The translations under genes and the position numbers were made by a program. Of a stretch of 64,000 nucleotides of DNA, positions 603-7,049 are shown piece after piece. Within the stretch, counting starts at the first letter, position 1; each line of letters opens with the position of its first letter. The notes under the pieces are model-generated. The model saw only the letters and a list, made by a program, of their open reading frames with translations, had not been told where the DNA came from and did no database searches. The DNA comes from Mycolicibacterium monacense (GTDB lineage: Bacteria > Actinomycetota > Actinomycetes > Mycobacteriales > Mycobacteriaceae): the NCBI RefSeq assembly GCF_010731575.1, contig NZ_AP022617.1, forward strand, positions 5,828,001-5,892,000, read 5' to 3'.

Positions 603-905
603 TCAGGCGACCTTGACGTCGACCTCGTGGATACCCGCGCCCGACGGGGCGACGGTGGCGTCGCCGTTGCCGACCTTCGACAGCGCGCGCAGCGTCCAGG
701 TGCCCGGCGCGGCGAAGAACCGGAAGTCACCGGTGGCCGACGCGACGACCTCGGCGGTGAATTCGTCGGAGGCGTCCAGCAGGCGCACGAACGCGCCCCC
801 GACGGCCTGGCCGGAGCCGTCCACCACACGTCCGGTGATGACGGTTTCCTTCTCCAGGTCGACGCTGGCGGGCAGTGTCAGGCCTTGCTTAGGAGGAGCG
901 CACAT
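603..905 (-). CDS. sseC: SseC-like DUF1416 protein
   Basis: A 100-residue protein of the DUF1416 family, matching mycobacterial SseC in length and in its invariant start MCAPPKQGL. The body (residues 20-100) looks like a carboxypeptidase-regulatory beta sandwich: GRVVDGSGQAVGGAFVRLLD, then a FFAAPGTWTL strand pair. Its function is not established; it always travels with the CysA-type sulfurtransferase and is assumed to serve sulfur metabolism. The ATG lies four bases after the cysA stop codon, so translation is probably coupled. A longer in-frame reading exists upstream but runs through cysA and was rejected. Confidence 0.9.
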   Translation of the reverse strand: MCAPPKQGLTLPASVDLEKETVITGRVVDGSGQAVGGAFVRLLDASDEFTAEVVASATGDFRFFAAPGTWTLRALSKVGNGDATVAPSGAGIHEVDVKVA

Positions 906-909
906 ATAT

Positions 910-1743
910 CTAACTTCCCAACTCGATCGGGGCCCCCACAAGGGAGCCGTATTCCGTCCAACTGCCGTCGTAGTTCTTGACGTTCTTGTGTCCCAACAGT
1001 TCCTGCAGCACGAACCAGGTGTGCGACGAGCGCTCACCGATGCGGCAGTAGGCGATGGTTTCCTTCTCACCGTCCAGGCCGGCGTCGGCGTAGATCTTGG
1101 TCAGATCCTCGTCCGACTTGAAGGTGCCGTCCTCGTTGGCGGCCTTGCTCCACGGCACGTTGATGGCGGTGGGAATGTGGCCGGCACGCTGGCTCTGCTC
1201 CTGCGGCAGGTGCGCGGGAGCGAGGATCTTGCCGGAGAACTCGTCGGGGGAGCGCACGTCGACCAGGTTCTTCTGCCCGATCGCGGCGATCACCTCGTCG
1301 CGGAAGGCCCGGATGCTGGTGTCGGGCTGCTTGGCGGTGTAGCTGGTCGCGGGTCGGTTCGCCGGCTCGCTGGACAGCGGACGCCCGTCGAGCTCCCACT
1401 TCTTGCGACCGCCGTCGAGCAGCTTGACGTTCTCGTGGCCGTAGAGCTTGAAGTACCAGTAGGCATAGGCGGCGAACCAGTTGTTGTTACCGCCGTAGAG
1501 GATCACGGTGTCGTCGTTGGCGATGCCCTTCTCCGACAGCAGTTTCGAGAACTGCTGCTGGTCGACGAAGTCGCGCTTGACCTGATCCTGCAGTTCGGTC
1601 TTCCAGTCGAGTCGTACGGCGCCGGGGATGTGGCCGGTGTCGTACGCCGAGGTGTCCTCGTCGACCTCGACGAACACGGTGTTCGGCGCGTCGAGATTGC
1701 TCTCGGCCCAGTCGGTGGTGACCAGGACGTCGGAGCGAGCCAT
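910..1743 (-). CDS. cysA: Thiosulfate sulfurtransferase (CysA2-type rhodanese)
   Basis: Two-domain rhodanese of 277 residues, the same length as mycobacterial CysA2/CysA3. The N-terminal rhodanese repeat (about 5-125) is catalytically silent; the C-terminal repeat (about 145-275) has the active loop CRIGERS with Cys233 as the persulfide carrier. It transfers sulfane sulfur from thiosulfate to a thiol acceptor in the cytoplasm. It sits between DUF4395 and SseC on one strand. The unit is preceded by a cysteine-run leader peptide at 2335-2403, which suggests cysteine-responsive control of this gene. Despite the name it is not the sulfate ABC ATPase CysA. Confidence 0.95.
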   Translation of the reverse strand: MARSDVLVTTDWAESNLDAPNTVFVEVDEDTSAYDTGHIPGAVRLDWKTELQDQVKRDFVDQQQFSKLLSEKGIANDDTVILYGGNNNWFAAYAYWYFKLYGHENVKLLDGGRKKWELDGRPLSSEPANRPATSYTAKQPDTSIRAFRDEVIAAIGQKNLVDVRSPDEFSGKILAPAHLPQEQSQRAGHIPTAINVPWSKAANEDGTFKSDEDLTKIYADAGLDGEKETIAYCRIGERSSHTWFVLQELLGHKNVKNYDGSWTEYGSLVGAPIELGS

Positions 1744-1772: not shown

Positions 1773-2243
1773 TCATGCGGGGGTGGGAACCCGGCGGAGC
1801 CGGGCTGCGAGCGGGTAGAGCTTGCAGCCCAGGCAGATGCCGAAGGCCGCGTTGAGGAACGCCGCGAACAGTGCGAACGCGGTGGCGATGAGACCGACCG
1901 CGGACCATTCCGCGGCGAATCCGATGGTGCCGACGGCGGCGAAGACGAAGCCGACGAGCTGGGCGAACTTCAAGGGGCCCGCCGGTTCGCGGTCGGTGAC
2001 CGGCCCGAGTCGGGGCGCGATCACCCGCCCGAACACGATGCCGTAGGGGTGCCGGCGGGGACCGCGTCGTGCGCCGATCGCGAAGACGACGGTCTGCGCG
2101 CCGAGCAGGACCGCCGCCGCGAGCGGACTCACCGCGGAGAGCACCAGCGTCGCGACCAGCACGCCGGTGGTCACCCAGGCGGCGAACCGGGGACCGCGGA
2201 CGTCGACCCGGGGGTCCGACGCGGTGTCTGTCGACGTGGACAT
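1773..2243 (-). CDS. DUF4395 membrane protein
   Basis: Integral membrane protein of 156 residues. After a polar start (1-18) there are two hydrophobic segments (about 20-60), a loop with RHPYGIVFGR, and two more segments (about 90-145). Near the C-terminus the motif CLGCKLYPL gives a CxxC pair typical of DUF4395. The family often sits beside rhodanese or thioredoxin-like genes, so a role in sulfur or thiol chemistry at the membrane is likely but unproven. AGGAG lies nine bases before the ATG; an out-of-frame ATG lies in between. First gene after the leader peptide, 29 bases before cysA. Confidence 0.85.
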   Translation of the reverse strand: MSTSTDTASDPRVDVRGPRFAAWVTTGVLVATLVLSAVSPLAAAVLLGAQTVVFAIGARRGPRRHPYGIVFGRVIAPRLGPVTDREPAGPLKFAQLVGFVFAAVGTIGFAAEWSAVGLIATAFALFAAFLNAAFGICLGCKLYPLAARLRRVPTPA

Positions 2244-2334
2244 GTGGTCATACTCCTGTTGCGTTGGATGTCTGGTTGTGGACAGGCCAGAGCCGCTAGC
2301 TCGAGCGAACGCGACCGTGGCCGCGCGACGACGC

Positions 2335-2403
2335 TCAGCTACAACAACAACAGCAACAACCCGCGGTGCGGCACAGATCGACTGCGCGGCGCTTGGTGAG
2401 CAT
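2335..2403 (-). CDS. Cysteine-run leader peptide (attenuator uORF)
   Basis: A 22-codon ORF that begins MLTKRRAVDLCRTAG and ends with six consecutive Cys codons (five TGT, one TGC), Ser and TGA. It sits 91 bases before the DUF4395 start, alone in the gap between thiX and the sulfur genes. Cysteine-rich leader peptides of this kind are known in mycobacteria ahead of sulfur genes, where ribosome stalling on the Cys run under cysteine shortage lets the downstream operon be expressed. The TAAGCT at 2431-2436 is a possible -10. No strong Shine-Dalgarno is visible, and whether it is translated leaderlessly cannot be told from the sequence. Confidence 0.85.
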   Translation of the reverse strand: MLTKRRAVDLCRTAGCCCCCCS

Positions 2404-2452
2404 CAGCTCGAGGCGGGCGAACACGCGGCCAGCTTACCCAATGACAGGGTGA

Positions 2453-5562: not shown

Positions 5563-5940
5563 ATGTCGAATTCGACGCCCATGGAATCGGCGGACCGCTG
5601 TGATGTCGCCCCGCTGCTGCGCGAGCCACTGACCCCGGATGCCGCCGCGCAGATGGCGTCGACGCTCAAGGCGCTCGCCGACCCCGTCCGCCTGCGCCTG
5701 TTCAGCGCCATCGCCAGCCGCGCCGGTGGCGAGGCCTGCGTATGCGACGTCTCCGACGGCATCGACGTCAAGCAGCCGACCATCTCGCACCACCTGAAGG
5801 TTCTGCGCGACGCCGGCCTGCTGACCTCCCAGCGCCGCGCGTCCTGGGTGTACTACGCCGTGGCCCCTGAGGCGCTGCGCAGTCTTGCGATGCTGTTCGC
5901 GATCGATACCCTCGACGCGACAGCAGGGGCGAACGCATGA
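5563..5940 (+). CDS. arsR: ArsR-family arsenite-sensing repressor
   Basis: Winged-helix repressor of 125 residues. The core (about 30-110) has LADPVRLRLFSAI, the recognition helix region QPTISHHLKVLRDAGLL, and a wing with WVYYAV. Cys59 and Cys61 in the ACVCD motif, with Cys13 nearby in sequence, are candidates for trivalent arsenic binding. It should repress its own operon with acr3 and release DNA on As(III) or Sb(III). Its stop overlaps the acr3 start (ATGA). The first ATG abuts the operator; a second Met seven codons in is less likely. Confidence 0.92.
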   Translation: MSNSTPMESADRCDVAPLLREPLTPDAAAQMASTLKALADPVRLRLFSAIASRAGGEACVCDVSDGIDVKQPTISHHLKVLRDAGLLTSQRRASWVYYAVAPEALRSLAMLFAIDTLDATAGANA

Positions 5941-7049
5941 CTCGGCCGGTCGCGTCCACCGAGACGCCTCAGGTCGTCGCCAAACTCTCGACGCTGGACC
6001 GGTTGCTGCCACTGTGGATCGGCATCGCGATGGCCGCGGGGCTGCTCCTCGGCCGCTGGGTCCCCGGCCTGAACACCGTGGTGGAAAGCATTGCCGTCGA
6101 CGGCGTTTCGCTACCCATTGCACTCGGGCTGCTGATCATGATGTACCCGGTGCTGGCCAAGGTCCGCTACGACAGGCTCGACACCGTCACCGGTGACCGC
6201 AAACTCCTCGTGAGCTCGCTGCTCCTGAACTGGGTGCTCGGACCCGCGCTCATGTTCACGCTCGCCTGGCTCCTGCTGCCCGACCTGCCGGAGTACCGAA
6301 CCGGGCTGATCATCGTCGGGCTCGCCCGGTGTATCGCCATGGTGATCATCTGGAACGACCTCGCCTGCGGGGACCGCGAAGCCGCGGCGGTGCTGGTCGC
6401 GCTGAACTCCATCTTCCAGGTCGTGATGTTCGCGGTGCTCGGATGGTTCTACCTGTCGGTGCTGCCGGGCTGGATCGGGTTGGAGCAGACCACCATCGCC
6501 ACGTCCCCGTGGGACATCGCCAAGTCCGTGCTGATCTTCCTCGGGATTCCACTGCTGGCCGGATACCTGTCCCGGCGATTCGGTGAGAAGGCCAGGGGCC
6601 GCGACTGGTACGAGTCGAGGTTCCTGCCCACCGTCGGGCCGTGGGCGCTGTATGGTCTGCTCTTCACCATCGTCATTCTCTTTGCGCTGCAAGGGGATCA
6701 GATCACCAACCGGCCACTCGACGTGGTGCGGATCGCGCTACCCCTGCTGGCGTACTTCGCGATCATGTGGGGCGGCGGATACCTGCTGGGCGCGCTCCTC
6801 GGGCTGGGATACGAACGCACCACCACGCTGGCATTCACCGCCGCGGGCAACAACTTCGAACTCGCCATCGCCGTCGCGATCGCCACCTACGGGGCCACGT
6901 CGGGTCAGGCTCTCGCCGGCGTCGTCGGTCCGCTCATCGAGGTGCCCGTCCTGGTCGCCCTGGTGTACGTCTCACTCGCCCTGCGCCGCCGCTTCTCCCG
7001 GCCGGTCGGTGTTGTTCGGGTGACCGCGAGGTTCACGCCTCGACGGTGA
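5937..7049 (+). CDS. acr3: ACR3-type arsenite efflux permease
   Basis: Polytopic membrane protein of 370 residues with about ten helices, of the ACR3 (BASS superfamily) type rather than E. coli ArsB. The functional Cys132 sits in GLARCIAMVIIWNDLA, and the conserved Glu is in GNNFELAIA. It exports arsenite across the plasma membrane using the proton-motive force. It is translated together with arsR. Its 3' end overlaps the facing arsC gene by 17 bases, which is unusual and means the two transcripts are complementary at their ends. Confidence 0.93.
   Translation: MTRPVASTETPQVVAKLSTLDRLLPLWIGIAMAAGLLLGRWVPGLNTVVESIAVDGVSLPIALGLLIMMYPVLAKVRYDRLDTVTGDRKLLVSSLLLNWVLGPALMFTLAWLLLPDLPEYRTGLIIVGLARCIAMVIIWNDLACGDREAAAVLVALNSIFQVVMFAVLGWFYLSVLPGWIGLEQTTIATSPWDIAKSVLIFLGIPLLAGYLSRRFGEKARGRDWYESRFLPTVGPWALYGLLFTIVILFALQGDQITNRPLDVVRIALPLLAYFAIMWGGGYLLGALLGLGYERTTTLAFTAAGNNFELAIAVAIATYGATSGQALAGVVGPLIEVPVLVALVYVSLALRRRFSRPVGVVRVTARFTPRR

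Follow-up and report, generated by a model that had tools for sequence, protein, structure and literature searches.

A leaderless polycysteine leader ahead of the DUF4395-cysA-sseC operon of Mycolicibacterium monacense and its relatives in many Actinomycetes

Introduction

Short leader peptides with runs of cysteine codons near the stop codon were predicted by Seliverstov 2005 (PMC1262725) ahead of the cys operons of Mycobacterium and P. acnes, and ahead of cbs in B. longum. In its treatment of these leaders, that study found no conserved terminator, proposed Rho-dependent termination while calling the idea weak, and left the mechanism open. The same work described the LEU element of actinobacterial leuA, where a run of regulatory codons pairs with the Shine-Dalgarno (SD) sequence of the next gene. 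The LEU element resembles the leader described here in this respect, but it relies on leucine and comes with a candidate pseudoknot. Closer still is the orthologous leader of cysA2/Msmeg_5788 in M. smegmatis, for which Shell 2015 documented 70S ribosome occupancy and proposed attenuation. More recently, passages in three papers (PMC9031893, PMC9094748, and PMC13236596) cite Canestrari 2020 for regulation by contiguous cysteine codons acting as cysteine-responsive attenuators, and the last of these, published in 2026, terms polycysteine-leader regulation translation attenuation.

Leader peptides of this kind have already been modeled. NCBIfam holds an equivalog model for the leader, NF042933 ("Ms5788A family Cys-rich leader peptide"), along with NF042934, a putative leader peptide with a cis_reg_atten domain, whose existence suggests that curators had already noticed the RR core discussed below. 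Among the titles listed by our literature searches, no paper describing a class-wide cysteine leader was found beyond the predictions of Seliverstov 2005. Where a reannotation of Streptomyces lividans names its leader peptides, it gives eight, none of which is called cysteine-dependent there. Here, we describe one such leader in Mycolicibacterium monacense, in a stretch of 64,000 nucleotides (hereafter, the window) of contig NZ_AP022617.1, and compare it with its relatives in mycobacteria and other actinomycetes.

Results

The leader is a member of the Ms5788A family. Its ORF lies on the reverse strand of the window, 91 nt (stop codon to start codon) ahead of three genes of the same orientation. 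The first gene of the putatively regulated operon encodes a DUF4395 protein (1773..2243; Pfam PF14340, E = 1.2e-41), and its SD sequence, AGGAG, is found at 2253..2257, 9 nt before the ATG at 2243. It is followed by a gene for a thiosulfate sulfurtransferase-like protein with two rhodanese stretches (910..1743; PF00581), which we take to be CysA based on orthology, and by the gene for SseC, a DUF1416 protein (603..905; PF07210, E = 4.8e-42), whose start at 905 was read from the sequence. With these Pfam matches, the leader has the location that is characteristic of its family, ahead of DUF4395-cysA-sseC. The preceding gene on the same strand encodes a thioredoxin-like protein, and the one before that an LmeA-like protein. 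Elsewhere in the window, on the forward strand at 5563-7049, an ORF for an ArsR-like regulator is followed by one for a membrane transporter resembling arsenite efflux proteins (ACR3-like), as judged by eye from the translations.

The peptide matched NF042933 with 53.3 bits (cut-off, 45; E = 1.6e-14), and its core matched NF042934 with 40.4 bits (cut-off, 27). When the same models were applied to relatives, a Nocardia-type leader scored below the cut-off of NF042933 (32.5) and above that of NF042934 (27.2), as did a Rhodococcus-type leader (40.7 and 32.7, respectively). The leader peptide had no match in Pfam. Within 1500-2700, Rfam returned four matches at E values up to 10, all far under their gathering scores, which lends no support to a riboswitch or other Rfam cis-regulatory RNA. 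By its match to NF042933, the feature in the window is an already known element. It shares the peptide family, leaderless start, downstream operon, and cluster of cysteine codons near the stop codon with the cysA2/Msmeg_5788 upstream ORF; apart from the species, we found no essential difference.

Comparison of loci moves the start codon upstream. The initial annotation had described a 22-codon ORF at 2403-2335, reading MLTKRRAVDLCRTAGCCCCCCS before the stop codon, with six consecutive cysteine codons (TGT TGC TGT TGT TGT TGT) followed by a last serine codon. The cysteine run and the position upstream of the operon stood up to comparison, while the ATG start and the length did not. From the ATG at 2401..2403, the reading frame stays open up to a GTG at 2424, and 6 nt ahead of this GTG there is a -10 box, TAAGCT (2431..2436), whose TANNNT form is kept in relatives. 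To compare loci, we used the DUF4395 protein as the query, a choice that is independent of the leader, and took the best 80 of 229 confirmed loci. In all 80, an ORF containing three or more cysteine codons in a row lay upstream, with a TANNNT box 6-8 nt ahead of its start, which was GTG in 79 loci and ATG in 1, at the same place. We also assembled a wider set of 110 loci by adding the window and 29 loci retrieved because their DNA resembles that of the leader. The leader was found in 108 of these (GTG in 107, ATG in 1); two loci were dropped (L099 and L101) in which the leader motif was unmatched. Among 102 distinct leaders, the codon at the position of ATG 2403 was ATG in 45, GTG or TTG in 24, and something else in 33, including CTG (13) and TCG (6). 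We rejected ATG 2403 as the start since this position is unconserved, as opposed to the GTG or ATG with a box that occupied the position of 2424 in 80/80 loci. Because the comparison keeps both the start codon and the TANNNT box there, the true start is taken to be the leaderless GTG 2424, which gives a 29-codon ORF at 2335..2424 with the sequence MFARLELMLTKRRAVDLCRTAGCCCCCCS. The spacing of the -10 box and its conservation point to a transcription start at the GTG itself.

The leader is widespread in the genus and, in its own genome, stands alone among similar tracts. DNA matches to the leader region (E up to 0.001) were found in 59 of the 60 genus genomes searched, the source genome included, with at least one match being weak. 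One contig labeled as an Acidobacteria metagenome-assembled genome (L028) carried a typical mycobacterial leader with DUF4395 and is probably misbinned. Across 70 other stretches of the M. monacense genome, none of 61 distinct tracts of at least four TGY codons formed an ORF of 6-60 codons with TANNNT 5-9 nt before its start, in a survey that covered all but six of the TGY sites listed for the whole genome. When the survey was rerun on the 70 stretches and the start of the window with runs of at least three TGY codons and no length limit, the box was found only at the window's own leader. These comparisons confirm that the leader ORF is real, beyond what chance would produce. Since none of the 61 tracts that were read (again leaving out those six sites) was another leader with at least four cysteine codons and a promoter box, other cysteine-leader loci in this genome, if present, would need runs that are shorter or interrupted, or would have to start differently.

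The cysteine tract is complementary to the SD region of DUF4395. The tract comprises six codons (2341..2358; five UGU and one UGC). Within it, CUGUUG (2348..2353) forms the core of a candidate anti-SD strand, and CAACAG (2256..2261), which overlaps the DUF4395 SD, is its candidate partner based on sequence comparison and the predicted fold. The fold predicted for this RNA contains a helix of 13 pairs that joins 2342-2356 with 2253-2266 (nt 69-83 and 159-172 of the mRNA). Many of the printed mycobacterial loci likewise carry CAACAG, or the longer CAACAACAG, ahead of the DUF4395 SD, complementary to CUGUUG(UUG) in the tract. Pattern matching located the SD and start for 103 of the 108 leaders, of which a few may be misassigned. 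The highest-scoring contiguous helix between tract and SD region had a mean score of 16.55 across 95 distinct leaders. When the 14 nt before the SD were shuffled, the score fell to 11.53 (sd 0.31), and 0/100 shuffles reached the native value. When partners were permuted between leaders, it was 16.05 (sd 0.20), and 0/300 permutations reached the native value, a thin margin among related sequences given that the best permutation scored 16.547 versus 16.553. Duplex energies for 99 distinct leaders agreed in direction, although the differences were smaller: -16.3 kcal/mol for native pairs, -14.9 after shuffling, and -15.9 after permutation.

Exchanges between groups of leaders gave mixed results, where the groups were defined by tail sequence rather than by taxonomy, so that CCCRCC-tailed Rhodococcus-type leaders counted as mycobacterial-type. 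Six Nocardia-type leaders combine a CCUGUGC tract strand with an SD strand that reads GCGCAGG (five leaders) or GCACAGG (one leader). They scored 17.75 with their own partners, versus 13.05 and 15.38 when strands were exchanged with mycobacterial-type leaders; Nocardia-type tracts scored about equally well with Rhodococcus-type SDs (17.5). The CCCTCC-tailed Rhodococcus-type leaders (3 distinct) argue against co-adaptation, scoring 11.5 with their own SDs and 17.57 with mycobacterial-type SDs. Taken together, the 13 predicted pairs and the comparative scores show strong complementarity between tract and SD.

The predicted opening of the SD is modest. Based on partition functions for 95 leaders, the probability that the SD is unpaired rose from 0.253 with the tract to 0.327 when folding began after the stop codon (p = 6e-5), with gains of more than 0.2 in 20/95 leaders and drops of that size in 4/95. 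A ribosome-sized mask raised the mean from 0.257 to 0.316 (16 leaders raised, 5 lowered). Both tests covered leaders with at least 60 nt from stop to start. In the window itself, accessibility changed from 0.30 to 0.41 without the tract and from 0.37 to 0.41 with the tract masked. The order of the codons mattered in that a codon-reordered tract was predicted to seal the SD less well (0.302, p = 6e-5). The mycobacterial-type group also shows a preference for UGU, which makes up 350 of the 545 cysteine codons after the core, while it accounts for 26 of 134 in the genes of the window as called by a simple ORF rule. This preference is unsupported as a product of SD pairing: an all-UGC tract hardly altered accessibility (0.266 versus 0.253, p = 0.10).

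An alternative that shares the stalling ribosome is transcription attenuation, where an intrinsic or Rho-dependent terminator between the leader and DUF4395 would respond to stalling. Rho-dependent termination was the proposal for mycobacterial cys leaders in Seliverstov 2005 (PMC1262725), and the only terminator-like site that we found on the coding strand lies within the leader ORF (2380-2357). The hairpin and U-run that such a mechanism would require between the leader and the first gene did not appear in a consensus scan of 500-2700, which returned two terminator-like sites versus 1.0 in shuffles and none in the gap between leader and DUF4395. Furthermore, the account in Seliverstov 2005 (PMC1262725) has no conserved terminator and calls the Rho idea weak, and both the mycobacterial leaders and the distant set described below show strong complementarity to the SD. 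Transcription attenuation is thus unlikely. Sequestration of the SD is better supported because no conserved terminator was reported in that study and none is found in the gap here.

Part of the leader is also conserved as RNA. A hairpin within the ORF, GCGCAG-UCGAU-CUGUGC (2371..2387; nt 38-54 of the mRNA), recurs in the form GCRCAG-UNGAY-CUGUGC, and all six stem columns keep standard pairing in no fewer than 98 of the 99 distinct Mycobacteriaceae-type leaders. Stem changes are mostly from G-U to A-U, and the third base of the loop valine codon is free to vary. We rejected this hairpin as a class-wide feature, as distant leaders frequently disrupt the pairing of its stem; where it is kept, it could be a pause or coupling hairpin. 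The maintenance of the hairpin in the Mycobacteriaceae-type set, along with codons that are fixed as nucleotides (CTC in 102, TGC in 102, and CTG in 100 of 102), fits an untranslated, conserved promoter and RNA element that only happens to read as a cysteine run. Such a chance reading is extremely improbable given that distant leaders vary the arginine codons (CGC, CGG, CGA, AGG, and CGT) while keeping arginine constant, and given the 70S ribosome occupancy that Shell 2015 described for the M. smegmatis orthologue.

Leaders with a common core precede DUF4395 or cysA in many Actinomycetes. A profile built from 15 leaders gave a single strong match in the M. monacense genome, with the next at E = 0.6. 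At E values up to 0.1, where the weakest matches may be chance, it matched 127 of 151 genomes in the family, 132 of 150 in the order, and 154 of 197 in the class. We assembled a distant set of 88 loci chosen by their leader (28 from profile searches and 60 fetched further). The motif was central in 82 of these, and the six without it were dropped; 75 of the 82 start 5-9 nt after TANNNT. In 25 longer printed loci read by eye, the next gene was DUF4395 in 16 and CysA in 7, with two being unreadable in the frame shown. As a check on bias, we used a leader-blind DUF4395 query and read 70 of 120 listed places. This selection excluded places with known leaders, members of the family to which the window belongs, the 26 DUF4395 matches with the weakest scores, and three further places, and is thus short of a full sample. 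The motif RRx[VIL][DE] preceded a nearby stop codon upstream of DUF4395 in 50/70 places. Two loci at contig ends were dropped, and among the remaining 68, there were 47 with an upstream short ORF (15-40 codons) and promoter box, yielding 50 ORFs versus 8.5 in shuffles. The motif was present in 45 of these 50 ORFs and a variant, LTRRLAVD, in two more. No boxed short ORF of this length was found in 21/68 loci. Five loci from a single genus (L285, L290, L292, L301, and L316; genus g99) had DUF4395 without an upstream RRxVD leader, in genomes with a leader-profile match elsewhere. The core RRxVD...R occurs in leaders ahead of DUF4395 or cysA in many Actinomycetes. NF042934, which the core of the window's peptide matches, is a broader model with 19 positions, and the distant leaders that we read carry one to four cysteines and no long run.

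The peptide core and one cysteine codon are fixed in distant leaders. Among 44 distinct leaders of the leader-blind set, both arginines and the aspartate were invariant, as the counting pattern dictates, with synonymous change at these residues (pS) of 0.65 and 0.28 for the arginine codons and 1.08 for the aspartate codon. Position +13 from the first arginine lies outside the counting pattern. It was cysteine in 44/44 distinct leaders and UGU in 43/44, and 16 of 45 leaders in this set contained a single cysteine. Pooling both sets, UGU occupied +13 in 124 of 126 distinct distant leaders selected for cysteine at this position, and in 113 of 115 with a readable downstream start. Other cysteine codons were UGU in 14/176 cases in the same leaders and 18/145 in the downstream genes (Fisher p = 3e-51, relatedness uncorrected). 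In the mycobacterial-type set, +13 was UGU in 102/108. The base after the +13 UGU was C in 103/115 leaders even though the residue encoded next varies, being R in 69, P in 20, C in 8, Q in 7, L in 5, and another residue in the rest; L255, L282, L296, and L332 are examples.

We considered several reasons for the fixed codon in distant leaders. Pairing with the SD was rejected, as swapping UGU and UGC had no effect on SD accessibility (p = 0.50). Programmed frameshifting at UGU gave no clear signal: stop codons fell between -5 and +20 of the next start in 16/96 leaders for the +1 frame and 9/107 for the -1 frame, counts that come with no control. The UGU was predicted to pair with a stretch 40-60 nt before it with a probability of 0.29, and GACAC or GACAG was present in the ORF head of 27/115 leaders versus 5.4 in shuffles. 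Pairing of UGU-C with the ORF head may thus explain a minority of leaders (27/115).

Substitution patterns point to selection on the core. For RR.VDLCR in distant leaders, pN/pS was 0.11 (50 distinct leaders); the five codons that precede the core gave 1.05 (36 leaders) and the five that follow it gave 0.68 (36 leaders). In mycobacterial-type leaders, the core had a value of 0.36 (57 leaders) and the head one of 0.84 (76 leaders). The selecting pattern biases the core estimate downward, a concern that the leader-blind set answers in part. The core is more conserved than a counter of codons needs. Such conservation of amino acids over synonymous sites (0.11 versus 1.05 before the core) could be read as evidence for a trans-acting, cysteine-rich small protein involved in the handling of metals, thiols, or sulfur, with its upstream position merely reflecting operon structure. 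A trans-acting role is improbable, even more so than a terminator, considering that the cysteine tail ranges from a single codon to a run of eight and that SD complementarity is kept through different strands.

The distant leaders place their candidate anti-SD strand elsewhere. The dinucleotide TC stood ahead of the SD in 44/68 AGGAG sites versus 5/72 other AGGAG sites of the same loci. The last codon and stop read TCCTGA, GCCTGA, or CCCTGA in 58/115 leaders, and TCAGGA occurred in 48/115 leader-to-SD regions versus 1.2 expected. The helix score was 13.92 versus 12.47 for permuted partners (sd 0.21), higher than in any of the 200 permutations or in any of the 200 shuffles made under either of two schemes. 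The SD paired with the terminal segment with a predicted probability of 0.305, versus 0.042 and 0.024 for the adjoining segments. With the terminal segment masked, SD accessibility rose from 0.235 to 0.324 (114 leaders, p = 1.7e-7), with changes of more than 0.2 upward in 23 and downward in 1. Because the terminal segment of distant leaders is predicted to pair with the SD too, the logic of SD sequestration appears to be common to the lineages, with the strands differing.

Discussion

Our results correct the annotation of a known regulator in the window, a 29-codon leaderless ORF that starts with GTG. The initial annotation had claimed that a polycysteine leader acts as a cysteine-responsive attenuator of the rhodanese operon, and this claim is supported by the match to NF042933, by the attenuation proposed in Shell 2015, and by the papers that cite the 2020 work for such regulation. 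We consider it very probable that the leaderless Ms5788A leader is a cysteine-responsive translational attenuator of DUF4395-cysA-sseC. Our analysis shows the ORF with its promoter box and start, its place in the family, its conservation, and its complementarity to the SD; from these we infer that ribosomes stall, that a switch operates, and which way it works. With abundant Cys-tRNA, ribosomes would complete the ORF and the cysteine tract would pair with the DUF4395 SD region, so that little of the operon would be translated. When Cys-tRNA is scarce, a ribosome would wait on the cysteine codons and cover the tract, leaving the SD free and allowing the sulfur-transfer genes to be translated. 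In similar terms, the 2020 study by Canestrari reportedly describes stalled ribosomes that block structures sequestering the ribosome-binding site.

What was unexpected beyond the known switch is that relatives in other actinobacteria keep both the peptide core and a single cysteine codon constant, which suggests a possible nascent-peptide component. Based on core conservation in excess of what a codon counter needs, we tentatively propose, as a possibility that falls somewhat short of even, that the polycysteine leader of mycobacteria arose late from an arrest-peptide-like sensor found widely among the Actinomycetes, one that does more than count codons. Its core would be L-T-x-R-R-x-V-D-x-x-R, with the arginine pair 13 residues before a fixed cysteine that is almost always encoded by UGU; the ribosome would stall there when cysteine is short and hide the anti-SD strand. 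In many actinomycetes, this strand would reside in the last codon and stop (xCC UGA against UCAGGA), and in mycobacteria it would be part of the cysteine tract. Under such a scheme, a lone cysteine codon can suffice, as in the 16/45 leaders noted above, which a pure starvation counter would not predict. With the arginine pair 12-13 residues away from the stalling site, the core of the leader would lie within the exit tunnel, a parallel to the arrest peptide TnaC. If true, a class-wide, operon-linked leader with a selected core and a UGU at one specific position would connect arrest peptides with attenuators that respond to codon starvation.
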